64,000 nucleotides of DNA from Desulfovibrio piger ATCC 29098 (lineage in GTDB: Bacteria > Desulfobacterota > Desulfovibrionia > Desulfovibrionales > Desulfovibrionaceae): positions 608,780-672,779 of the forward strand of contig NZ_DS996359.1 in the NCBI RefSeq assembly GCF_000156375.1. Reading direction: 5' to 3'. Below, piece after piece: positions 11,414 to 24,075 of this stretch. Both the position numbers and the translations under genes were made by a program. The number at the start of each line of letters is the position of its first letter. Position 1 is the first letter of the stretch. The notes below the pieces were generated by a model that was not told the DNA's origin, did no database searches, and saw nothing but the letters and a program-made list of their open reading frames with translations.

Positions 11414-11962
11414 CTATTCGGCGGCGGGCTTTTTCTTTTCGGGCTTGGGCGCTTCGATGATGGTGCCGTCGGGCTCCACCATGGAAAGGGCGTGCACGGG
11501 GCAGGCCTCCATGCAGGCGGTGATCTTTTTGCCGTTCTCTTCGCGCCATGCCTTGCACATGTCGCAGCGCACGGCCACTTCACGGCGGCTGCGCTGGGCC
11601 ATGGTCTCGCCGCCTTCTTCGGGCATGCCGATGGTATCCAGCGAGATGGTGCCGTAGGGGCAGACGGCGATGCACATCTTGCAGGCCACGCACAGCTGCA
11701 CGCGCATGGTGATGCGGCCGTCCTCTTCCTGCTGCAGGGCGCCGGTGGGGCAGATGTTGCAGCAGGGGGCGGGGCTGCACTGGTGGCAGCGCACGGTGGT
11801 CTTGAAGCCTTCGGCCTTGACCACCTGCACGCGCGAGACCAGCACGTCGCGGTGCTTCATGGCTTCCTTGAAGGTCATCCCGTGGTGCGCGGCGATACAG
11901 GCCACTTCGCAGCGGCGGCAGGCGCGGCATTTGTCGGGTATTACCTGAATATGCTCAATCAT
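11414..11962 (-). CDS. cooF: CooF-type polyferredoxin electron-transfer subunit
   Basis: A 182-residue protein with sixteen ligand cysteines for four [4Fe-4S] clusters: C12/15/18/22, C59/62/67/71, C91/94/97/101 and C133/136/150/154. In Rhodospirillum rubrum, CooF passes electrons from carbon monoxide dehydrogenase to the Coo hydrogenase. Here it is the last gene of the hydrogenase operon, so it is the likely electron entry point. No CO dehydrogenase gene is in the window. The C-terminal tail is Lys/Pro-rich. Its ATG overlaps the end of hypA by eight bases. Confidence 0.88.
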   Translation of the reverse strand: MIEHIQVIPDKCRACRRCEVACIAAHHGMTFKEAMKHRDVLVSRVQVVKAEGFKTTVRCHQCSPAPCCNICPTGALQQEEDGRITMRVQLCVACKMCIAVCPYGTISLDTIGMPEEGGETMAQRSRREVAVRCDMCKAWREENGKKITACMEACPVHALSMVEPDGTIIEAPKPEKKKPAAE

Positions 11963-12335
11963 GGCTTTCCTCCGGCTCCACCTCCAGATTGGTCATCACA
12001 AGACCGTGTCCGCCGGTGAAGCGTATGGCGTCGCTGCCGCAGTGGGGGCAGGTAAAGTGCCTTCTGTGCAGCTCGAATGTATGTCCGCAATCCGTGCAGC
12101 GGCAGGGCAGGGGAGCGGTCTGCAGGATGAGCTCCGCGCCTTCGGCCATGCCGCCCTGGGCAAGGATCTCGAAGCAGCCTTTCAGGGTCTGCGGCTCCAC
12201 ACAGGAGATGAGGCCCAGCTCGCAGGTGATGCTGCGGATGCGCCGCACCCGCTGTTCCGGGTGGGCCGCATTGTGGTCTTCCACAGTTTTCAGGGCTATC
12301 TTGAGCAGCCCCTGGACAAGACTGGCTTCGTGCAT
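11955..12335 (-). CDS. hypA: Hydrogenase nickel-incorporation protein HypA
   Basis: A 126-residue maturation protein that delivers nickel to the [NiFe] active site with HypB. It starts MHEASL, in which His2 is the known nickel ligand. It carries a zinc ribbon with two Cys pairs (CTDC near residue 79 and CPHC near residue 95). It lies between cooH and cooF, 13 bases after cooH and overlapping cooF by eight, so it is a dedicated chaperone for this enzyme. Other hyp genes are not in the window. The ribosome-binding site is weak (GGAAAC). Confidence 0.94.
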   Translation of the reverse strand: MHEASLVQGLLKIALKTVEDHNAAHPEQRVRRIRSITCELGLISCVEPQTLKGCFEILAQGGMAEGAELILQTAPLPCRCTDCGHTFELHRRHFTCPHCGSDAIRFTGGHGLVMTNLEVEPEESHD

Positions 12336-12348
12336 CCTTGTTTCCGGC

Positions 12349-13437
12349 CTAGCGCTCCGTGCAGGAGACGCAGGGGTCGATGCTGTTGGTGATCAGGGCC
12401 ACGTCGGCCACGGCGCAGTCGCGCATCATGACGCCCAGGGCCTCCCAGTTCATGTACGAAGGCACGCGCCACTTGAGGCGGGCCGGGATGTCCGTGCCGT
12501 TGGTGCGGATGTAGTAGAAGACCTCGCCGCGGGGCGCTTCGCTGCGGGCACAGGCTTCGGCCGTGTGGATCTGGCGCATGGGCACGCAGTGGGGGCCTTC
12601 GGGCATGCGCTCGCAGCACTGGCGGATGAGCTTGAAGGATTCGAAGATCTCGTCCAGGCGCACCATGGTGCGGGAGTGGATGCAGCAGCCGTCATGGGTG
12701 ATGCTCTTGAACTCCAGGTCGGGATAGGCCGCATAGGGCGAATCCTTGCGCACGTCGATGGCGATGCCGGAACCGCGCGCCACGGGGCCCACCACGCCCA
12801 GACGCAGGGCGTCTTCCCTGGGCAGCAGGCCCAGGCCCTTGGTACGGCCCAGGACCATGGCATTGGTGGCATAGATCTCGCGGATCTCGTCCACGGCGGG
12901 CTCCACCTTGTCGACCATGCCCAGGATGTACGTGAGCATGTCCGGGGGCACGTCGCACTTGACGCCGCCGATGCAGTTGGAGGCCAGGTTCATGCGGTTG
13001 CCGTAGACGGTCTCCTTCACGTCCTGCATCATCTCGCGCACTTCCATGACGTGCATGAACAGCGACTTGAAGCCGATGATGTGGGCCTGGATGGCGGTGT
13101 TGAACAGGTGCGAGGCAACGCGCTTGATCTCTTCGGCCAGCACGCGCAGGTAGTGGGCGCGGACCGGGATCTCCATGCCCAGCACGTTTTCCACGGCCAT
13201 GCTGTAGGTGAAGCTGTGGCTGTTGGAGCACAGGGAGCAGACGCGCTCGGTAAGGGTGACGTTCTTGATGAGGTTGCGCTGGGTGGCCAGGGCTTCCATG
13301 CCGCGGTGCACGTGACCGGAGGTCAGCTCCACCTTGCGGATGGTCTCGCCTTCCACGGTGAGGTTGAAGTAGACGGGCTCTTCAAGCGCCACATGCACGG
13401 GGCCCAGCGGCATGTTGAAAGTGGTGAGCTTGCTCAT
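12349..13437 (-). CDS. cooH: Coo hydrogenase large [NiFe] subunit
   Basis: A 362-residue catalytic subunit of a group 4 energy-converting hydrogenase, related to NuoD. Nickel-iron ligands are present at both ends: C67 and C70 (ERVCSLCSNSH) and C356 and C359 (DPCVSC). The protein ends three residues after the last cysteine, so there is no C-terminal peptide for a maturation protease to remove. It reduces protons with electrons from the CooL/CooX/CooF cluster chain, coupled to ion pumping by CooM and CooK. The ATG overlaps the cooU stop (ATGA). Confidence 0.95.
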   Translation of the reverse strand: MSKLTTFNMPLGPVHVALEEPVYFNLTVEGETIRKVELTSGHVHRGMEALATQRNLIKNVTLTERVCSLCSNSHSFTYSMAVENVLGMEIPVRAHYLRVLAEEIKRVASHLFNTAIQAHIIGFKSLFMHVMEVREMMQDVKETVYGNRMNLASNCIGGVKCDVPPDMLTYILGMVDKVEPAVDEIREIYATNAMVLGRTKGLGLLPREDALRLGVVGPVARGSGIAIDVRKDSPYAAYPDLEFKSITHDGCCIHSRTMVRLDEIFESFKLIRQCCERMPEGPHCVPMRQIHTAEACARSEAPRGEVFYYIRTNGTDIPARLKWRVPSYMNWEALGVMMRDCAVADVALITNSIDPCVSCTER

Positions 13438-13973
13438 GCGCGTTCCCCTTCCTTTTCTTTCAGAATGCGTTCCCAGAGGTCCGTGGTGCAGGCCCCGTTC
13501 ATCATGATGGACAGCGGCACGGCCTCGTTGAGGATGCCGGCGTCCAGTTCCTCGTCAAGGAAGAGGCGGCGCGGGTTGGGCTGGTTGGCCACACGGATGC
13601 CGTACAGTTCCATCATCTCGCGCTCATGCCAGTCGGCATTGGCGAACAGGGGGGTGATGGAAGGCACGGTGTTGTGTTCGGCGGTCAGGGTGACGGTGAT
13701 GTTGTAGACCACGCCCTGCAGCTCGAAGTGGTAGCACAGTTCCTGCTGCTGTTCTCCCAGCTGCTTCAGGTTGTAGGCCGTGATCATGCACAGACGGGCA
13801 TGGGCGCCCTGCAGGGCGGTGGCGGCCTGGCTCATGAAACGGGGATGGTCCAGGCGGAACCAGTGGTAGGCGTTGCCGTAGGCGTCGGTGCTGTGATGTA
13901 TGGCTTTGTCGCGGGTGCAGAGGGCTCCCAGAGCCTCTATGAGCGCGGCGTTGCCTTGCAGAATCTCTTGCAT
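13434..13973 (-). CDS. cooU: Coo hydrogenase NuoC-like subunit
   Basis: A 179-residue subunit of the 30-kDa complex I (NuoC) family. The family signature is the segment WHEREMMELYGI followed by NPRRLFLDEE, near residues 115-145. It bridges the large subunit and the cluster-carrying arm. The ATG at 13973 has GAGG eight bases upstream; a TTG two codons earlier is in frame but would lie too close to that site. Stop and cooH start overlap. Confidence 0.92.
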   Translation of the reverse strand: MQEILQGNAALIEALGALCTRDKAIHHSTDAYGNAYHWFRLDHPRFMSQAATALQGAHARLCMITAYNLKQLGEQQQELCYHFELQGVVYNITVTLTAEHNTVPSITPLFANADWHEREMMELYGIRVANQPNPRRLFLDEELDAGILNEAVPLSIMMNGACTTDLWERILKEKEGERA

Positions 13974-13994
13974 GTTCAATCCTCGTAAAAACGG

Positions 13995-14576
13995 CTAATC
14001 CGTGGTGGGCGCGGCAGAAGCGGGGGTCTGGGCGGGCTCCATGGCCTTGTGGGGCTCGGGCAGATGACAAAGGCTGCGCTTGGCGTCCTCGATCTGGCGG
14101 CACTTGGGGCACAGGTGACGGATCTGGTCGGGGTCGATCTCGCTGTTCTGGGCGTAGAGTTTTTCCGCCAGTTTGAGCGGCAGGGGCCGCATGAGGGTGC
14201 CGCAGTGCGAGCAGGGTTCGTAATTGATGGTCTGCTGCTCCACACGACCGAACTTTTCGGACTCCAGGTGGGCCGAATGCCAGTCATTGGTGATGCTCAT
14301 GGCACCGGTGGGGCAGTACTGGCGGCAGGAGGCGCACAGACAGCAGGAGTCCTGCCAGACCGTGATGGTGTAGCCGCTGTTGTCCGGTTTCTGGCGGATG
14401 TTGATGGCCCCGGCGGCACAGACATGACGGCACACGCCGCAGCCCATGCACAGGTTGGGGTCGATCTTCACCCGGCCCCGCAAGCGCTCGGGCGTGAATG
14501 TTTCACCCAGCGGGAACGGGTCCGTGCTGGGGCCTTGCAGCAGATTGCGGAACAGAATTTTCAGAAAACCCGCCAT
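13995..14576 (-). CDS. cooX: Coo hydrogenase ferredoxin-like subunit
   Basis: A 193-residue subunit with two [4Fe-4S] motifs: C43/46/49/53 and C78/81/84/88. This is the NuoI/EchF type and links the soluble electron donor to the small subunit. Beyond the usual core there are two more Cys pairs, C122-x2-C125 (PCSHCG) and C156-x2-C159 (LCPKC), resembling a zinc ribbon as in some hydrogenase ferredoxin subunits. The C-terminal tail is Ala/Pro-rich. The ATG has GGAGG seven bases upstream, lying across the stop of the preceding 70-residue gene, with only two bases between the genes. Confidence 0.9.
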   Translation of the reverse strand: MAGFLKILFRNLLQGPSTDPFPLGETFTPERLRGRVKIDPNLCMGCGVCRHVCAAGAINIRQKPDNSGYTITVWQDSCCLCASCRQYCPTGAMSITNDWHSAHLESEKFGRVEQQTINYEPCSHCGTLMRPLPLKLAEKLYAQNSEIDPDQIRHLCPKCRQIEDAKRSLCHLPEPHKAMEPAQTPASAAPTTD

Positions 14577-14578
14577 AA

Positions 14579-14791
14579 TTATTCCTCCGGGCCCGGGCGC
14601 GGGCCTTTGGGCGTACGGGGAATCAGACCGCAGACGTGGTGGCATATGCCGCAGCGCCGGCAGGGCTGATCCCCGGAAGTTGTCTCGGCAGCGGGGGAGG
14701 CACTGTCAAGAGGTGCGGTACCGTCAGCGGGAGCGGCGTCACGCAGCCCCAGCCAGACGGCCAGCCGATGCAAAGGCTTCCCCCTGTCCAT
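14579..14791 (-). CDS. Small single-Cys4-motif protein inside the coo operon
   Basis: A 70-residue reading frame that fills the gap between cooL and cooX exactly. Its ATG follows the cooL stop directly (TAAATG) with GAGG just upstream, and its stop is two bases before the cooX ATG. It carries one ferredoxin-type motif, C44-x2-C47-x2-C50-x3-C54 (CRRCGICHHVC), but glycine replaces the proline that normally follows. The N terminus is basic with a short amphipathic stretch; the rest is Ala/Pro-rich. I do not recall a counterpart in the R. rubrum coo operon. It may be an extra cluster carrier or assembly factor. The tight packing and Cys motif argue that it is real; the function is unknown. Confidence 0.72.
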   Translation of the reverse strand: MDRGKPLHRLAVWLGLRDAAPADGTAPLDSASPAAETTSGDQPCRRCGICHHVCGLIPRTPKGPRPGPEE

Positions 14792-15241
14792 TTATTCCTC
14801 GATGCCCAGCTTTTTGAGCCACATCTTGCGTGCCAGCACCACGCCTTCCAGGATGGCCTGGGGGCGGGGCGGACAGCCGGGCACGTTCACATCCACGGGG
14901 ATGTAGCGCGAGATGGGGCCCTCGATGGAGTAGCCTTCGCGGAACACGCCGCCGGAGATGGGGCAGATGCCCACGGCCACGGTGATTTTGGGCTCGGGGA
15001 TCTCGTTCCAGACCGCGAGCACGCGGTCGCGCACACGGGTGGTCAGCGGGCCGGTGATGAGCACGATGTCGGCATGGCGGGGGCTGCCGCAGTACCGGCA
15101 CCCCAGGCGTTCCACGTCGTAGCGGGGGATGCAGGCCGTGGTGGCCAGTTCCACGTCACAGCCGTTGCAGGAGCCCGCGTTGATGCGGAAGAGCCACGGC
15201 GAGCGTACCGACAGTTTCTTGAGCATGTTGTCCAGACTCAT
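14792..15241 (-). CDS. cooL: Coo hydrogenase small subunit (NuoB-like)
   Basis: A 149-residue small subunit that holds the proximal [4Fe-4S] cluster next to the NiFe site. Cluster ligands are C25 and C28 (GSCNGCDVE), C93 (GICPISGG) and C123 (PGCPP), the complex I N2-type arrangement. The frame stays open upstream, but the ATG at 15241 has a perfect AAGGAGG about seven bases before it, spanning the cooK stop. It lies between the NuoH-like cooK and the small Cys4 protein. Confidence 0.95.
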   Translation of the reverse strand: MSLDNMLKKLSVRSPWLFRINAGSCNGCDVELATTACIPRYDVERLGCRYCGSPRHADIVLITGPLTTRVRDRVLAVWNEIPEPKITVAVGICPISGGVFREGYSIEGPISRYIPVDVNVPGCPPRPQAILEGVVLARKMWLKKLGIEE

Positions 15242-15252
15242 GCCCGACCTCC

Positions 15253-16215
15253 TTACAGCGCCCACACCAGCACCAGGCTCACCAGAGCCAGGACGGTGGG
15301 GACCTTCACATAAAAGCGGAACGCCTGGTCGATGCGGAAACGCCCGGTGGCGGACTTGACCAGGGTCAGGGACAGCAGCATCAGCACCAGACACTTGAAG
15401 ACGAACCAGATCAGGTTGACGATCCAGAAGTCGGAGATGGTGCCGGGGAAGAACAGGGCCACGCCCAGGCCCAGGACCACGAAGGTCTTGAGGGCGGAGC
15501 CGATCTGGAACAGGGCCAGCAGGGGGCCGCCGTATTCCAGCAGGGGACCTTCCAGCACTTCGGTCTCGGCTTCGGGGATGTCGAAGGGCGGCACGCCCAT
15601 GGTGCCGGGCAGGAAGATCAGGTAGGCCAGCAGGGCCGGGATCATGACCGGGTTGAGGCCCAGGGAACCGGCGTTCTGCTGCCAGTCCACGATGGCCAGC
15701 AGCGAGAACTCGGCACCGGTACCGGTGGCCTTGCCCACCAGCATGGCCACGGCCAGCAGGATCATGAGCAGGGGGGTCTCGTAGGCCAGCATCATGAGCA
15801 TCTCACGCGAGAAGCCCATGGCGCCGAAGGGCGAGCTGGAGGCCGAGCCGCCCAGCATGATGGCGATGGCCGGGATGGGCAGCAGGTAGAAGAGCACCAG
15901 CAGGTCGCCCATGTTGTACAGGCCGCTGAACACGCCGGGCACGGGGATGAAGGCCGCACAGACGGCCATGCCCGCAAAGCCCACCACGGGCGCGGCCAGG
16001 AAGACGCTGCGCACGGCCGTTTTGGGGATCAGGGTCTCCTTGGTCAGCAGTTTGGCGATATCCAGCAGGGGCTGGATCAGCGGCGGGCCCACGCGGCGCT
16101 GCAGGCGGGCCTCGACGCGACGGTCAAGGCCTTTGAACAACAGCCCCACAGCCAGCGCGAACAGGCCGCCGGGGAAAATGCACATGTGCAGCACACCAAG
16201 AATGATGTCGGTCAT
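15253..16215 (-). CDS. cooK: Coo hydrogenase membrane subunit (NuoH-like)
   Basis: A 320-residue integral membrane subunit with eight predicted helices, homologous to NuoH of complex I. It anchors the hydrogenase arm and takes part in ion translocation. The NuoH signature lies just after the first helix: RRVGPP..QPLLDIAKLLTKE near residues 40-62. The second signature, PFDIPEAETE, lies near residue 205. The ATG has AAGGAG with normal spacing; cooM ends 15 bases upstream. Confidence 0.94.
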   Translation of the reverse strand: MTDIILGVLHMCIFPGGLFALAVGLLFKGLDRRVEARLQRRVGPPLIQPLLDIAKLLTKETLIPKTAVRSVFLAAPVVGFAGMAVCAAFIPVPGVFSGLYNMGDLLVLFYLLPIPAIAIMLGGSASSSPFGAMGFSREMLMMLAYETPLLMILLAVAMLVGKATGTGAEFSLLAIVDWQQNAGSLGLNPVMIPALLAYLIFLPGTMGVPPFDIPEAETEVLEGPLLEYGGPLLALFQIGSALKTFVVLGLGVALFFPGTISDFWIVNLIWFVFKCLVLMLLSLTLVKSATGRFRIDQAFRFYVKVPTVLALVSLVLVWAL

Positions 16216-16230: not shown

Positions 16231-19200
16231 CTAGCTCTTGTTGTCTACGCTGGTATTGCCCGGGAACCAGGCCAGGCGGCGAACCAGCCCGCCGTAGATG
16301 CCCGAGGGCGCCATGCGGCTGGTGGCCACCTCGGTGGGCAGACCGCAGGTATGCACGTCCACTTCACGCAGCACCACGAAGCGGCGCACGAAGTACCAGC
16401 CCGCGGCGGCGGCGATGGCCATCATCACGCTCAGGCCGGTGGCGTTCCAGGCACCGGGGCCTTCCTGCAGGCCCGAGAGGCCCACCACCAGGCTGCCGGC
16501 GTTGTAGTCGCCCAGGATGGCGTTGATGGGCCAGAGCATCAGGCCGGGGAAGATGCCGGTGATGATGCAGCCGATGGCCAGGATGGCCATGGGCACGCGC
16601 ATGGTCAGCGGGGCTTCCTGCACATGATCCAGATGCGTGGAAGGCTGGCCCAGGAAGGCCGCATGCAGGAACTTGGCGATGTAGGCCAGGGTCAGCACGC
16701 TGCCCACCAGGGAGAGCAGGGCCAGGAAGGGCTGGTCCGCCTGCATCAGGGCGTGGTAGATGATCCACTTGGACGAGAAGCCGCTGGTGGGCGGCACACC
16801 GACCACGGACAGGCCGGCGATGGCGAACATGCACAGGGTGAAGGGCATCTTGCGGCCGATGCCGCCCAGGTCATCCAGGCTGTCGGCGTGGGTGGCGAAC
16901 ATCACGGCGCCGCAGACGAGGAAGAGCAGGTCCTTGAAGAACACGTGGTTGACCACGTGCAGCATGCCGCCCGCGTAGCCCAGGGCACCGCCGGCAGCCA
17001 CGGCCAGCACCATGTAACCGATCTGGCTCACGGTGGAGTAGATGAAGACCAGCTTCACGTTGTTGACCAGCAGGGCCTGGGTGGCGGCCATGACGATGGT
17101 GATGCCGCCGATCCACATGACCACGGTCTGGATCAGTTCATTGGGCCAGGCGGCGCTGACGCCGATCATGGCCAGGCTGCCGCCCATGAGCATGAAGAGC
17201 TTGATGAGGCCCAGGATGGAGCTCTTCAGCAGCACCGAGGATATGTAGCCGGACACGGGCGTGGGGGCCAGGGCCGGATGCATCTGCCAGTCGATGCGGA
17301 AGGGCAGCTGGGCGGCCTTCATGACGAAGCCGATGGCCAGCAGGGCGGTGCCGCCCCAGACGACCCAGCCGGGCAGCAGGAAGAGCTTGGTCAGGTGCTG
17401 CATGGACTCGGACGAGAACGGCGTGGCCGGACCGAGCACACAGACGCCCACGAAGATGAAGCCGGCGCCCAGCACGTTGAAGAAGAAGTACTTGAAGGCT
17501 TCGCGCAGCGAGGCCTTGTCGCCTTCATGGGCGATGGCCATGTAGAGCGTCCACGAGCTCATGATCTCCCAGAACAGGAAGAACTGGAAGAGATAGGTGC
17601 TGGCGGAGATGCCCACCAGGCCGCCGCACATGGCGGTAAAGGCACAGTAGAAGCGCCACTGGGTGTGGCTGTGGGACATGTAGCCCTGGGCGTAGAAGAC
17701 GTTCAGGGCGCCGATGAGCGGCACGATGAGTGCGAAGCAGTAGCTCAGGGTATCCAGGTCGCGGCCCAGGAAGATCACCAGGACGGCGGTCAGCAGCAGC
17801 ACGAAGGCGCTGGAGCGGGCGGCCCAGATGGGGTTGCGGCGGAAGAAGGCCGGCAGCAGGGCACCGAACACGGGCACGGCCACATAGACGGGCCAGGGCG
17901 CCATGACGGACTGGAGCACGACCAGATCCATGGAGGCCGGGGCGAAGCAGGACGAGGCCACGGGGATGACCAGCGTGAGCGGGGCCCAGGGAGCCAGGCC
18001 CAGCAGCAGGCTGAGGGCGGCCAGGGCCATGAGGGCGCCGCGGATGGACCACGGGGCCTCTTCCACCATGGGCAGGTCAGCGGGGCGTTCCTCGAAGACC
18101 AGGGTCTTGAGGATGCGCACGTAGTAGATGGCGCCCACCAGGGAGCCGATGAGGATCAGGGCCGCCAGCGCGGGATGACCGGCGTGGATGGCGGACTGGA
18201 TCATCAGGTATTTGCTGAAGAAGGCGGTGAACGGCGGCAGGCCCATGATGCAGATGAGGCCCACGGCCATACAGCTCACGGTCCAGGGCATGCACTGGCC
18301 AAGACCGCGCAGGTCGGCGAGCTTGCGGCTGCCGGCCCGCAGGATGAGGGCGCCCGCACCGAGGAAGAGCAGGTCCTTCATGATGGCGTGGCTGAGCATG
18401 TGCGACAGGGCGCCGGCCGTGGCCAGCCAGGTGCCCATGCCCAGCACCAGGGCGATCTCGCCCAGCTGGCCCAGGGTCGAGTAGGCCAGCATGCGCTTGA
18501 TGTCGTCCTGCTTCAGGGCCATGAGCTCACCGAAGATCAGGGTGGCCGCGCCCATGAAGGTCAGGATGGAGCCGAACCAGGACAGGCCGAAGACCTCGGC
18601 CTTGGCGAACAGGGCGCCGTTGGTCTGGCCCAGCAGCAGGACCACGATGCCGAACATGCCCATCTTGGTGATGATACCGGACAGGGGACCGGACACCGAG
18701 GAAGGCGCGGCGGGGTGGGCGTCGGGCAGCCAGGAGTGCAGGGGCACCAGACCGGCCTTGACGCCAAAGCCGACGAGGCAGAGCAGGGCGGCCATGTTCA
18801 GCACATGGGGCGAGAGCAGGGCGCTCTGGATGCGAACATCGGCAAGGCCCAGGCCGCCGTTGCCCAGCAGCAGCATGCCGGGCAGCATCAGCAGGGCGCC
18901 GCCCGCGCACATCAGGTAATATTTGAAGCCCGCGTCAAAGGCCACGCGGTTGGCTTCGTGCACCACCAGGAAGTAGGAGGCAAAGGTCATCAGTTCCCAG
19001 TAGCCGTACATGGCGGCCATGTCGGGCGTGGAAACGATGCCGGCCAGAGAGGCGAAGGTCAGCAGCAGGAAGAACCAGTACCAGCCCTGCCGGTGGGCGT
19101 GGGCCATGTAGCCCAGGGAGTACACCGAGACGATGAAGGCGATGAAGCCGATCATCACCAGGAAGAGCAGGGCCACGGGCGCGGGCGCATCCAGCGTCAG

Positions 19201-20016
19201 GGTCGCGGCCAGGGCGGCGGCACAGGCCAGCACGCCAAGGTGGGGCATCCAGCGGAATTTCGCCCAGGCGGCCACGCCGCAGACGAAGGCACCGGCAAAG
19301 TAGATCCAGAAGGCGGGATGCACGGTGGCGTGGGCCACCTGCAGGCCCGCCCAGCCGGCGGCCACATCCAGCATGGGCGCGCGGGCCAGGCCCATGAGGG
19401 CCACCAGCACGCCCAGCACCAGGGTCAGGGCGTCGGAGCGGCAGCTGGCGGGAGCATCGCCGTCACAGGCGGCGCTACAGGGCTGCAGGAAGCACTGGCG
19501 CAGGGCGTCCACATGCAGGGCGATGAGGACCGTGGCCGTGACGGCCGCCAGCACGGTGCAGAACAGGCCGCAGTGCAAAGGCAGGGAAGAGGCCAGTATG
19601 CCCTGGGTGATAAAAAGACGCCCTTCCGGGATCAGGAAGGGCGAACCGCCCACGCTGGCCATGAGGCCGAGGGCGAACAGGGCACCATTGACGGGCTGGA
19701 GTTTGACGGCCCCGCGCAGGGCCGCGAAGGTCGCCGACGGCGCGGCGGGCCCGGCCAGGGAATTGAGGGCGCTCCAGCTCAGGCCGCGGGCCAGCAGCTG
19801 GAAGGCAACGAACAGCCAGACGCCGGTACCGGCGGCAGCATTGGCCGCACCCAGCGCCATGCAGATGAGGCCCGCGTCATGCACGGCCCCCCACAGGATG
19901 AGCCGGCGGGCGTTCTGCCGCTGGCGGATCGCCTGCCATGCGCCGTACAGCAGGAACAGCAGGCCCGGGATGAAAAGAATGAAGGAACCGCTTGCCGTGT
20001 AGGATGGTATTGTCAT
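16231..20016 (-). CDS. cooM: Coo hydrogenase giant antiporter-like subunit
   Basis: A 1261-residue membrane protein made of two fused complex I antiporter (NuoL/M/N, Mrp-type) units, about residues 1-640 and 650-1190. The conserved antiporter segment is present in both: LHSWLPDAHPAAPSSVSG in the first and MHPALAPTPVSGYISS in the second. R. rubrum CooM has nearly the same length. Each unit should form a proton or sodium channel driven by hydrogen production. It is the first gene of the operon. The ribosome-binding site is weak (GGGGCG close to the ATG). A C-terminal segment (CGLPTEVAT and following) lies outside the antiporter folds. Confidence 0.94.
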   Translation of the reverse strand: MTIPSYTASGSFILFIPGLLFLLYGAWQAIRQRQNARRLILWGAVHDAGLICMALGAANAAAGTGVWLFVAFQLLARGLSWSALNSLAGPAAPSATFAALRGAVKLQPVNGALFALGLMASVGGSPFLIPEGRLFITQGILASSLPLHCGLFCTVLAAVTATVLIALHVDALRQCFLQPCSAACDGDAPASCRSDALTLVLGVLVALMGLARAPMLDVAAGWAGLQVAHATVHPAFWIYFAGAFVCGVAAWAKFRWMPHLGVLACAAALAATLTLDAPAPVALLFLVMIGFIAFIVSVYSLGYMAHAHRQGWYWFFLLLTFASLAGIVSTPDMAAMYGYWELMTFASYFLVVHEANRVAFDAGFKYYLMCAGGALLMLPGMLLLGNGGLGLADVRIQSALLSPHVLNMAALLCLVGFGVKAGLVPLHSWLPDAHPAAPSSVSGPLSGIITKMGMFGIVVLLLGQTNGALFAKAEVFGLSWFGSILTFMGAATLIFGELMALKQDDIKRMLAYSTLGQLGEIALVLGMGTWLATAGALSHMLSHAIMKDLLFLGAGALILRAGSRKLADLRGLGQCMPWTVSCMAVGLICIMGLPPFTAFFSKYLMIQSAIHAGHPALAALILIGSLVGAIYYVRILKTLVFEERPADLPMVEEAPWSIRGALMALAALSLLLGLAPWAPLTLVIPVASSCFAPASMDLVVLQSVMAPWPVYVAVPVFGALLPAFFRRNPIWAARSSAFVLLLTAVLVIFLGRDLDTLSYCFALIVPLIGALNVFYAQGYMSHSHTQWRFYCAFTAMCGGLVGISASTYLFQFFLFWEIMSSWTLYMAIAHEGDKASLREAFKYFFFNVLGAGFIFVGVCVLGPATPFSSESMQHLTKLFLLPGWVVWGGTALLAIGFVMKAAQLPFRIDWQMHPALAPTPVSGYISSVLLKSSILGLIKLFMLMGGSLAMIGVSAAWPNELIQTVVMWIGGITIVMAATQALLVNNVKLVFIYSTVSQIGYMVLAVAAGGALGYAGGMLHVVNHVFFKDLLFLVCGAVMFATHADSLDDLGGIGRKMPFTLCMFAIAGLSVVGVPPTSGFSSKWIIYHALMQADQPFLALLSLVGSVLTLAYIAKFLHAAFLGQPSTHLDHVQEAPLTMRVPMAILAIGCIITGIFPGLMLWPINAILGDYNAGSLVVGLSGLQEGPGAWNATGLSVMMAIAAAAGWYFVRRFVVLREVDVHTCGLPTEVATSRMAPSGIYGGLVRRLAWFPGNTSVDNKS

Positions 20017-21404: not shown

Positions 21405-21602
21405 CTATTGGGGATCGAAGCCGATGTCGAAGATGGCCTGGCGCAGGGCGGCCTCGTCGACCGGAGCGCTTTCTTCGTAGCGCAGTTCCTTGGCGTCCAG
21501 GTCCACCACGGGGTTGCTCACGCCGGGGATCTTGGCGGCGGCTTCTTCCACAGCGGCTTTGCAATGGCCGCAACGCATGCCGTTGACTTTGAGGATCTTC
21601 AT
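21405..21602 (-). CDS. copZ: CopZ-like heavy-metal-binding chaperone
   Basis: A 65-residue cytoplasmic HMA-fold protein with the metal-binding motif GMRCGHC (residues 8-14), followed by the usual VEEA..KIPGV helix and strand pattern. It would carry Cu(I) to the divergent P-type ATPase. Length is typical of CopZ. The ATG has AAGGAG six bases upstream. It shares a 112-base divergent promoter region with copA, so joint control is likely. Metal specificity is inferred from the neighbour. Confidence 0.88.
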   Translation of the reverse strand: MKILKVNGMRCGHCKAAVEEAAAKIPGVSNPVVDLDAKELRYEESAPVDEAALRQAIFDIGFDPQ

Positions 21603-21629
21603 GCGACACTCCTTGCTGTGTTCCCACAT

Positions 21630-21648
21630 ATTGATTTTCATTTTCAAT
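21630..21648. promoter_or_regulatory. Inverted repeat between copZ and copA
   Basis: ATTGA and TCAAT arms flank a nine-base AT-rich centre (19 bp in all). Its position between divergent metal-handling genes fits an operator serving both. The shape is somewhat Fur-box-like rather than CueR-like, so the inducing metal is uncertain. Confidence 0.35.
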
Positions 21649-21714
21649 GGGAGCACCATCAGGAATAATACTGCCGGAACGGAGCGTCAAGACCACCGGC
21701 AGGCAGGAGGTTTT

Positions 21715-24075
21715 ATGGAAACGCGAAAGGCAGGTCCCTTGCGTTTTGATATCGGCGGCATGCATTGCGCCGCCTGCTCCTCGCGCATCGAGCGCGTGGT
21801 AGGGCGTATGGAGAACGTGGAGCGCATCGCGGTCAACCTGGCCACGGCCAAGGCCCAGATCTGGCTCAAGCCGGGCACGGAAAGCGCGACGGTGCCCCTG
21901 ATCATGGAACGTGTGGCGGGCATGGGCTTCAGCGCCGTGCCGTCACAGGAAGAGGACGTGGCCGTCCAGTACGAGAAAAAACGGCAGCAGGACGAAAAAG
22001 ACCGGCGCGTGCGTCTGGGGCGGCTGGGCCCCATGCTGGTCTTTGCCGTGCCCCTGCTCATCCTCTCCATGGGCCATATGCTGGGCATGCCCCTGCCCGT
22101 CTGGCTCGATCCGCATCACGCGCCCCGCACCTTCATGCTGGCGCAGCTGGCCCTGACCCTCCCCGTGGTCTGGCTGGGCCGCCATTTTTACCGTGAAGGC
22201 CTGCTGGCCCTGGCACACAAGGCCCCCACCATGGACAGTCTGGTGGCCGTGGGCACGGGCTCGGCCCTGCTCTACAGCCTGTGGACGACCTTGCTGGGCC
22301 TTGCGGGCAGCGAGCCCCAGCTGCGGGCCATGAACCTTTACTATGAGTCCGTGGCCGTTCTGCTGACCATGATCGAACTGGGCCAGTTCCTGGAGGCCAC
22401 GGCCAAGCGCAAGGCCGGGGACGCCATGGGCGCGCTGCTGCGCCTGACGCCGGAAACGGCCCTGCGTCTGGAAGCTGATGGCCAGAGCCGCGAGATCCCG
22501 CTGGCCGAGGTCATGCCCGGTGATACCCTGGTCATCCGGCCCGGCGCCCGCATCCCCGTGGACGGCAGCGTGGCCGGCGGCAAGAGCGCCGTGGACCTCT
22601 CCCTGCTGACCGGGGAATCCATCCCCGTGGCCGTGGGCCCCGGCGACAGCCTTGTGGCCGGGAGCGTCAACGGGGAGGGCGCCCTGACCATGACCGCCGA
22701 GCATGTGGGGCAGGACACCCGTCTGGCCCGCATCATCCGGCTGGTGCGCGAGGCCCAGGGCAGCAAGGCCCCCATCGCCCGCCTGGCCGACCGCGTGAGC
22801 TTCTATTTCGTGCCCGCGGTCATGGGTATCGCCACGCTGGCCGGGCTGGCCTGGCTGGTCTTCAGTGACGAGCCCGCCACCGTGGCCGTCACGGTCTTCG
22901 TGGCCGTGCTGGTCATGGCCTGCCCCTGCGCCATGGGCCTGGCCACGCCCATGTCCATCATGGTGGGCACAGGGCGCGGCGCCCAGCTGGGCGTGCTCAT
23001 CAAGAACGGCGCGGCCCTGGAGCAGGCCGGTCACGTCCGGGCCATCGCCGTGGACAAGACCGGGACCCTGACCACCGGCAAGCCCGTGCTGACCGGGGTC
23101 ATCCCCCTCGCCGCCCATGACGAGCAGGCCCTCGTCACCCTGGCCGCCGCGCTGGAGGCCCGCTCCGAGCATCCGCTGGCCCTGGCCCTGGTGACCGCAG
23201 GCAAGGAACGCGGCTGCCCCGCCTGCCCGGTGGATGCCGTGGATGTGGCGCCGGGCCTGGGCATCGCCGGTGTGGTGACGCTGGACGGCACGGCTTGGCG
23301 CGTGGCACTGGGCAATGCCGCCTTCATGGAACAGAACCGCATCGCTCCCGATGCCGCCGTGCTGGAACGGCTGGCCACACTGGCCGAGGCCGGGCAGACG
23401 CCGCTGCTGCTGGCGCTGGCTCCGGCCCGTGCCGCCCTTGCCGATGCCGGTGAGGACGACGGCGCCCGCTGGCAGTGGGACGACCTCCGGATGGCGGGCA
23501 TCCTTGCGCTGGCCGATGCCCTGCGTCCCGAATCCGCCGCGGTGGTGGCCCGTCTGCACGAGATGGGCATCCGGGTGGTCATGCTCACCGGGGACAATGA
23601 ACGCACCGCCCGGGCCGTGGCCCGGCAGGCCGGTCTGGATGACGCCGACGTGGCCGCAGGACTGCTGCCCGCCGAAAAGGCCGAGCGTATCCGCCAGCTC
23701 CAGGCCGAAGGCCTTCTTGTGGCCATGGTGGGCGACGGCATCAACGACGCCCCGGCCTTGGCCGTGGCCGACGTGGGCATGGCCGTGGGCAGCGGAGTGG
23801 ACGTGAGCGCCGAAGCCGGGGACGTCGTGCTCATGCGCGGCGGCATGGAGGCCGTGCTCACCGCGCTGGCCCTTTCCCGCGCCACCATGCGCAACATCCG
23901 CCAGAACCTGGGCTGGGCCTTCGGCTACAACCTGCTGGGCCTGCCTGTGGCCGCCGGTCTGCTGCATGTCTTCGGCGGGCCCATGCTCTCACCCATGATC
24001 GCCGGTACCGCTATGGCCCTGTCTTCCTTCTCCGTGGTCAGCAACGCGCTGCGACTGCGGTTTTTCAAGGTATAG
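21715..24075 (+). CDS. copA: Copper-exporting P1B-type ATPase
   Basis: A 786-residue inner-membrane pump that exports Cu(I) using ATP. Domain order: one N-terminal HMA domain (GMHCAAC, C18/C21), six to eight membrane helices, the actuator loop with TGES at 299-302, the transmembrane metal site CPC at 403-405, the phosphorylated aspartate D447 in DKTGT, SEHPL in the nucleotide domain, and GDGIND at 673-678. The CPC motif and single HMA domain fit CopA. The start was set at 21715 because AGGAGG lies four bases upstream. Seventy-five upstream codons are open, but they lie within the divergent promoter and the copZ gene. Confidence 0.96.
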   Translation: METRKAGPLRFDIGGMHCAACSSRIERVVGRMENVERIAVNLATAKAQIWLKPGTESATVPLIMERVAGMGFSAVPSQEEDVAVQYEKKRQQDEKDRRVRLGRLGPMLVFAVPLLILSMGHMLGMPLPVWLDPHHAPRTFMLAQLALTLPVVWLGRHFYREGLLALAHKAPTMDSLVAVGTGSALLYSLWTTLLGLAGSEPQLRAMNLYYESVAVLLTMIELGQFLEATAKRKAGDAMGALLRLTPETALRLEADGQSREIPLAEVMPGDTLVIRPGARIPVDGSVAGGKSAVDLSLLTGESIPVAVGPGDSLVAGSVNGEGALTMTAEHVGQDTRLARIIRLVREAQGSKAPIARLADRVSFYFVPAVMGIATLAGLAWLVFSDEPATVAVTVFVAVLVMACPCAMGLATPMSIMVGTGRGAQLGVLIKNGAALEQAGHVRAIAVDKTGTLTTGKPVLTGVIPLAAHDEQALVTLAAALEARSEHPLALALVTAGKERGCPACPVDAVDVAPGLGIAGVVTLDGTAWRVALGNAAFMEQNRIAPDAAVLERLATLAEAGQTPLLLALAPARAALADAGEDDGARWQWDDLRMAGILALADALRPESAAVVARLHEMGIRVVMLTGDNERTARAVARQAGLDDADVAAGLLPAEKAERIRQLQAEGLLVAMVGDGINDAPALAVADVGMAVGSGVDVSAEAGDVVLMRGGMEAVLTALALSRATMRNIRQNLGWAFGYNLLGLPVAAGLLHVFGGPMLSPMIAGTAMALSSFSVVSNALRLRFFKV

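Follow-up and report, generated by a model that had tools for sequence, protein, structure and literature searches.

The window, a 64,000-nucleotide stretch of the Desulfovibrio piger ATCC 29098 genome, contains an operon that encodes a Coo (group 4 [NiFe]) hydrogenase. Its genes lie on the minus strand in the order cooM, cooK, cooL, a micro-gene, cooX, cooU, cooH, hypA and a cooF-like gene, names that we assign partly from the usual order of Coo operons and partly from family matches. The first gene codes for a large membrane subunit of 1261 aa (16231..20016, from the list of open reading frames, ORFs) that we take from this order to be CooM. It is followed on the same strand by the NuoH-like cooK (15253..16215; Pfam NADHdh, E = 2.5e-66), by cooL, specifying a NuoB-like small subunit of 149 aa (14792..15241; Pfam PF01058, E = 7.5e-27), and by cooX, whose NuoI-like product of 193 aa carries two 4Fe-4S motifs (13995..14576; Pfam Fer4 matches). 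Further downstream are the NuoC-like cooU (13434..13979; Complex1_30kDa, E = 7e-20), the gene of the catalytic NuoD-like subunit cooH (12349..13437; Complex1_49kDa, E = 6e-65, and NiFeSe_Hases, E = 9.9e-10), hypA for nickel insertion (11955..12335; HypA, E = 3e-27) and the cooF-like gene of a multi-cluster ferredoxin (11414..11962; Fer4-family matches in Pfam, with HydN as the best NCBIfam model, below its cut-off). CooL of the window is 100% identical over its 149 aa to CooL of Desulfovibrio piger PG-251-APC-1. Elsewhere in the window, a minus-strand frame of 84 aa with GMRCGHC, presumably CopZ-like (21405-21659), is listed opposite the 5' part of a plus-strand frame that we take to be a CopA-like ATPase (21490-24075); the two genes are probably divergent, and their overlap would come from a start that the ORF list places too far out.

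The micro-gene occupies 14579..14791 on the minus strand, is co-oriented with the Coo genes and closely spaced to both neighbours. As the initial annotation had it, and as the sequence and the ORF list bear out, an ATG-initiated frame of 70 residues fits between cooL and cooX: the cooL stop TAA (14792-14794) abuts the ATG of the micro-gene (14789-14791), giving TAAATG, and two bases separate its stop (14579-14581) from the ATG of cooX (14574-14576). The single C-x2-C-x2-C-x3-C motif announced there is likewise present, as CRRCGICHHVC at residues 44-54 (14630..14662, minus strand), that is C44-RR-C47-GI-C50-HHV-C54, followed by G55. A Shine-Dalgarno-like GAGGAA precedes the micro-gene ATG and belongs to the end of cooL (14795..14800, minus strand), and a second such stretch, GGAGGAA, lies within the last codons of the micro-gene, where it would serve cooX (14582..14588, minus strand). 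In the junction table, GAGGAATAA is common to this second stretch in the micro-gene tail and to the cooL tail. Among the 21 carriers with a readable start, 19 have GAGG or GGAGG within 20 nt upstream of the micro-gene, the exceptions being L168, with no such stretch, and L181, with AGGA. Start junctions are of the TAAATG, TAGGATG or ATGA type; in the last of these, which overlaps the cooL stop, termination-reinitiation is the likelier start route, because the GAGG stretch lies very close to the start.

We searched for CooL in 79 Desulfovibrio genomes and took 73 places around cooL. With the window this made 74 junctions, of which 73 were readable from cooL to cooX; L187 was set aside, its contig ending before cooX, as was G084, whose cooL is cut by a contig end. 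The motif was sought solely in cooL-cooX gaps longer than 20 nt, here and in the family survey, and two loci (L132 and L133) have identical proteins. The junction survey, an earlier tree and the five-subunit tree described below also took 28, 10 and 4 further loci, respectively, which lie outside the genus counts. A frame of 37-80 codons with one C-x2-C-x2-C-x3-C motif was found at 22 of the 73 junctions, the window included, in gaps of 132-246 nt; its copies vary in length, and their phase with respect to cooL varies too. The micro-gene is carried by, among others, D. piger, Candidatus D. gallistercoris and a MAG from goat cecum (L051, L058, L066). The remaining 51 junctions are without the micro-gene and have gaps of 0-4 nt, except L169 (27 nt) and L160 (63 nt), whose intermediate gaps hold no Cys motif and are possibly remnants of a lost micro-gene. 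The initial annotation had named an empty gap, or frameshifts in it, as evidence against a gene; instead, every genus gap above 100 nt holds the motif frame (22/22), with imperfect starts in L188, where N bases leave no readable start, and in L181, a 37-aa copy with only a TTG. A cooM homologue is present in all 22 carriers, and the other eight operon genes occur in carriers and non-carriers alike where the contig reaches; a gene that was not seen would, by its coordinates, fall past the end of its contig. Two further irregularities of these loci are a genome with two cooL-cooX places in one assembly (G093: C108 = L199 and C238 = L198) and a cooL with one in-frame TAG (G067:C47:8415-8858).

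Outside the genus, 49 of the 50 cooL places found in the family were taken (48 genomes; the second place of G270 was left out), and the micro-gene was present at one of them, in a genome of another genus (G133, locus L276). Its frame there has 64 codons from a GTG, or 74 from an upstream TTG, and the motif CRRCGTCKHLC; in three congeners (L277-L279), cooL and cooX overlap by 17 nt and no micro-frame is found. All 12 loci taken from bacteria farther off (L118-L123, L125-L130) likewise lack the micro-gene. The statement in the initial annotation that known Coo operons have no gene at this point thus holds for most of them (absent from 51/73 places in the genus, 48/49 in the rest of the family and 12/12 farther away) and fails for the carriers (22/73 and 1/49). 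A profile built from 14 copies was run on 348 genomes of the order, and among the matches scored (at most 19 candidates per genome), those at E < 1e-11 fell in the same 22 genus genomes and in G133 and had no address other than cooL-cooX. At E = 1e-6 or better the matches scored came from 24 genomes, the additional one being G004 with a match in a 433-aa frame (E = 8e-7); of 16 weaker matches listed, 12 lay in ferredoxin-type motifs of large proteins or CooX and four had no motif where the match fell. Because of this search, we regard the cooL-cooX junction as the single known address of the family among the matches scored. That address is fixed, and the micro-gene, missing as it is from most of its own genus, is dispensable.

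Conservation is concentrated in the motif. All four cysteines are present in 22/22 copies (the motif being also the search criterion), a glycine follows the second Cys in 21, and the first residue after the third Cys is His in 19 and Arg in three. The next residue is His in 18 copies and Asn in four; after the fourth Cys stand 19 Gly, one Thr, one Ser and one Gln, and in no copy Pro. For the 14 core codons of all 22 copies, pN/pS over all pairs was 0.28; the +1 frame gave 1.11, the +2 frame 1.88 and the antisense frame 2.45 (13, 20 and 22 rows after stop-containing ones were dropped). In seven hand-picked carrier pairs, covering 14 of the 22 carriers, the 14 codons from the motif start gave 26 synonymous and nine nonsynonymous changes (pN/pS = 0.10, binomial p = 2e-10), with no nonsynonymous change at all in five pairs. 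The flanks of the same pairs gave 0.65 (p = 0.0016) and cooX 0.17. Across 16 pairs more than 70% identical, whole-frame dN/dS was 0.23-0.84, which lies above the core value because the flanks are loosely constrained. Substitutions were counted by a Nei-Gojobori type method, uncorrected for base composition. The check proposed at the outset, conserved cysteines under purifying selection, therefore came out in favour of a gene: the micro-gene is real, protein-coding and clearly preserved by coding selection centred on the motif. The same selection, strong on the motif and weaker on the flanks, makes it very improbable that the frame is a functionless, decaying remnant of a partial cooX duplication, a reading favoured by the duplicated cooX start in G133 and the repeated trait changes (both described below) and by the motif-free gaps of L160 and L169.

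The motif belongs with those of ferredoxins. The micro-protein of the window had no Pfam match at E = 1 or E = 10 and no NCBIfam or PADLOC match at E = 1; among the Pfam matches of 19 copies, the Fer4 family was commonest (Fer4_4 in 13/19, Fer4 in 11/19), weakly so, with a best E of 0.00026. The best match among solved structures was subunit I of NDH-1 (E = 0.00055), confined to the motif. In profile-profile comparison (hhalign), the first motif of CooX matched at 95.5%, the second at 71.6% and CooF at 3.5%. The initial annotation had noted Gly in place of the usual Pro; the glycine is seen in 19/22 copies, and its oddness is smaller than was thought, as none of 73 CooX rows has a Pro behind the fourth Cys of the first motif. 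A haem c site (CxxCH) was considered and rejected on the Arg found after the third Cys in 3/22 copies. The AlphaFold2 model of the micro-protein was poor (mean pLDDT = 58, pTM = 0.26), and an amphipathic helix in the head region beat shuffled sequences at p = 0.01 in two of 21 heads, the remainder giving p = 0.05 or above.

G133 bears on the origin of the micro-gene. When the final 30 nt of its cooL are set against those of its micro-frame, 23 positions agree, the next best stretch within 15 kb reaching 19, and the congeners have one such stretch, with the cooX ATG inside the end of cooL. Because two copies stand there against one in the congeners, the cooX start region is visibly duplicated in G133. 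The first codons of the G133 frame (V/M-FRFLRK) resemble a copy of the first codons of cooX (MFKFLK). The cooL tail of G133 (L276 / L219) still codes VRRVQIS, with the cooX start now behind the micro-frame, and this tail is a fossil of the cooL-cooX overlap seen in the congeners. Descent of the micro-gene from CooX beyond the start region of G133 would be plausible. Derivation of the whole protein from CooX was tried and was not significant against motif-fixed shuffles (p = 0.17 for G133; 0.058-1.0 for 21 genus copies). When micro-protein heads were compared with the first 25 residues of CooX, L161 alone of 22 tested stood out (p = 0.004, uncorrected). By profile, the nearest other motif in the own genome was that of a 1216-aa protein with two such motifs, followed by the first CooX motif.

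Repeats also mark the junctions within the genus. In L146, L148 and L149, CTGGAGGAATAA occurs twice, once near the end of cooL and once near that of the micro-frame, and some non-carriers in which cooL adjoins cooX directly (e.g. L174, L177) have one copy of CTGGAGGAATAA at the junction. A deletion between the repeats would give such a single-copy junction; insertion by duplication would look alike. On the five-subunit tree, presence of the micro-gene changes at least five times, of which the well-supported branches force two (L199 left out), and the earlier tree, although resolved differently, likewise did not unite the carriers in one clade. One gain within the genus followed by several losses is the history that we prefer.

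Taken with its address, the motif suggests a role in the hydrogenase. We hold, with moderate confidence, that this is a genuine, lineage-restricted accessory gene whose product, a dispensable half-ferredoxin, acts in the Coo hydrogenase as an accessory [4Fe-4S] component. The micro-gene would be translated in coupling with cooL and cooX, as its spacing suggests. The core CxxCGxCHHVCG probably binds one [4Fe-4S] cluster, alone or in a homodimer with ligands that the two chains would share in the manner of ferredoxin halves; by analogy, one cluster per chain is probable. To judge by the genomic address, the micro-protein probably works for the Coo hydrogenase, in the neighbourhood of CooL and CooX. 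It may dock on the CooL/CooX arm and could provide an extra site of electron entry or relay between cytoplasmic ferredoxin or CooF and CooX. Counting against tight docking are the weak constraint on the flanks (0.65) and the length range of 37-80 aa. The enzyme can work without the micro-gene, since 51 of 73 junctions lack it. None of the four most informative columns each of CooK, CooL, CooX, CooU and CooH cleanly separated carriers from non-carriers in 63 rows. A second CooL-like gene (45-49% identity, group 4 hydrogenase-like) accompanies one of 22 carriers and 19 of 50 non-carriers of the tree set (Fisher p = 0.0036), a contrast that comes down to too few independent pairs, two on supported branches and five on all.

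A different task for the same peptide would be assembly or protection: the Cys4 motif might hand a cluster to, or shield, nascent CooX or CooL and stay outside the mature enzyme. A gene placed between those of two Fe-S subunits, similar to the first CooX motif, with weakly constrained flanks and missing from many operons, would suit such a factor. We nevertheless consider it unlikely: operons without the micro-gene keep the same eight genes, so that CooX presumably matures there, and the window copy matches no known family of Fe-S scaffolds or carriers in Pfam or NCBIfam.

The tight start junctions, together with the Shine-Dalgarno-like stretch for cooX in the last codons, could also point to a translational coupler or a cysteine-sensing leader peptide that sets cooX translation. 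A coupler, however, would not require the constant C-x2-C-G-x-C-x3-C spacing or the almost invariant G, H and V, and the motif is kept at the amino-acid level amid synonymous change; the cysteines are spread rather than in a run, and no Rfam family reaches its gathering score within 14400-15000. We judge this function distinctly improbable. We think as little of a structural zinc site that would stabilise the complex. Four cysteines with an adjacent His in a small protein, for which the predicted pI exceeds 7 in 20 of 21 copies, would fit such a site, but the spacing of the cysteines and the glycine after the second are of the ferredoxin type, and neither His is a fixed ligand, given the Arg and Asn substitutions that follow the third Cys.

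Returning to the accessory [4Fe-4S] part of the hydrogenase, a bolder form of this reading can be put forward tentatively, as rather less than probable: a natural half-ferredoxin would function as a genuine micro-subunit of a membrane-bound [NiFe] hydrogenase. Tandem duplication of the cooX start region would have created it at the cooL-cooX border at least twice (in Desulfovibrio and separately in the genus of G133), and recombination between the two Shine-Dalgarno copies would have removed it again and again. If so, an energy-converting enzyme of today would employ a Dayhoff-type half-ferredoxin. Ferredoxins are supposed to have come from half-ferredoxins through a gene duplication. With 22 copies in the genus and one in G133, 23 natural copies are available whose place in the genome is constant, whose selection can be measured and for which a partner enzyme can be proposed, and for these reasons half-ferredoxin function can be tested in cultured Desulfovibrio, where sister species lacking the micro-gene offer natural controls. 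An accessory part of this kind would also add an unlisted component to some Coo hydrogenases.

In the available portions of PMC12648291, designed half-ferredoxins bind [4Fe-4S] as homodimers and are redox active; the natural half-ferredoxin PD1 also binds [4Fe-4S], occurs as monomer and dimer side by side, and shows redox activity at -438 mV. The same portions describe natural semidoxins as apparently rare, so far confined to thermophilic anaerobes and of untested function, and the accessible text of PMC13348028 limits putative ones to anaerobic bacteria. For D. vulgaris, the accessible part of PMC3125180 places CooH in a predicted eight-gene operon in which CooL (DVU2288) and CooX (DVU2289) bear consecutive numbers. 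The literature searched, which took in few subscription papers and parts of others, nowhere mentions a gene that separates cooL from cooX, and it yielded no paper on Desulfovibrio piger with a Coo hydrogenase. In that literature we did not find this small gene family described; the half-ferredoxin kind is known, and the hydrogenase-operon setting is new.

Among known systems, CooX shares the operon with the micro-protein; its first motif is nearer than its second, and neither this first motif nor the micro-protein has Pro after the fourth Cys. CooX, which we place in the NuoI-HycF-EchF family with two 4Fe-4S motifs, differs in having two motifs against one and shows no significant similarity outside the motif. 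Measured against Coo subunits in general, the micro-gene is a member of the operon, but its presence is restricted (22/73; 1/49). With the Fer4-type motifs of Pfam (Fer4, Fer4_2, Fer4_4) the micro-protein shares the Cys spacing and the Gly after the second Cys. In contrast to Fer4-type domains and to bacterial 2[4Fe-4S] ferredoxins, each listed copy has one motif per chain and no partner motif, none has Pro after the fourth Cys, and the Fer4-type scores of five relatives lie below the curated cut-offs, including the gathering score. The closest likeness is to semidoxins and PD1, described in the available part of PMC12648291: like them, the micro-protein is predicted to be a stand-alone small protein with a single ferredoxin-type Cys4 motif in an anaerobic host. 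Whereas natural semidoxins, as described there, measure about 30 aa and come from thermophilic anaerobes, the micro-protein has 37-80 aa, is encoded at a constant position within a hydrogenase operon and counts D. piger among its carriers.
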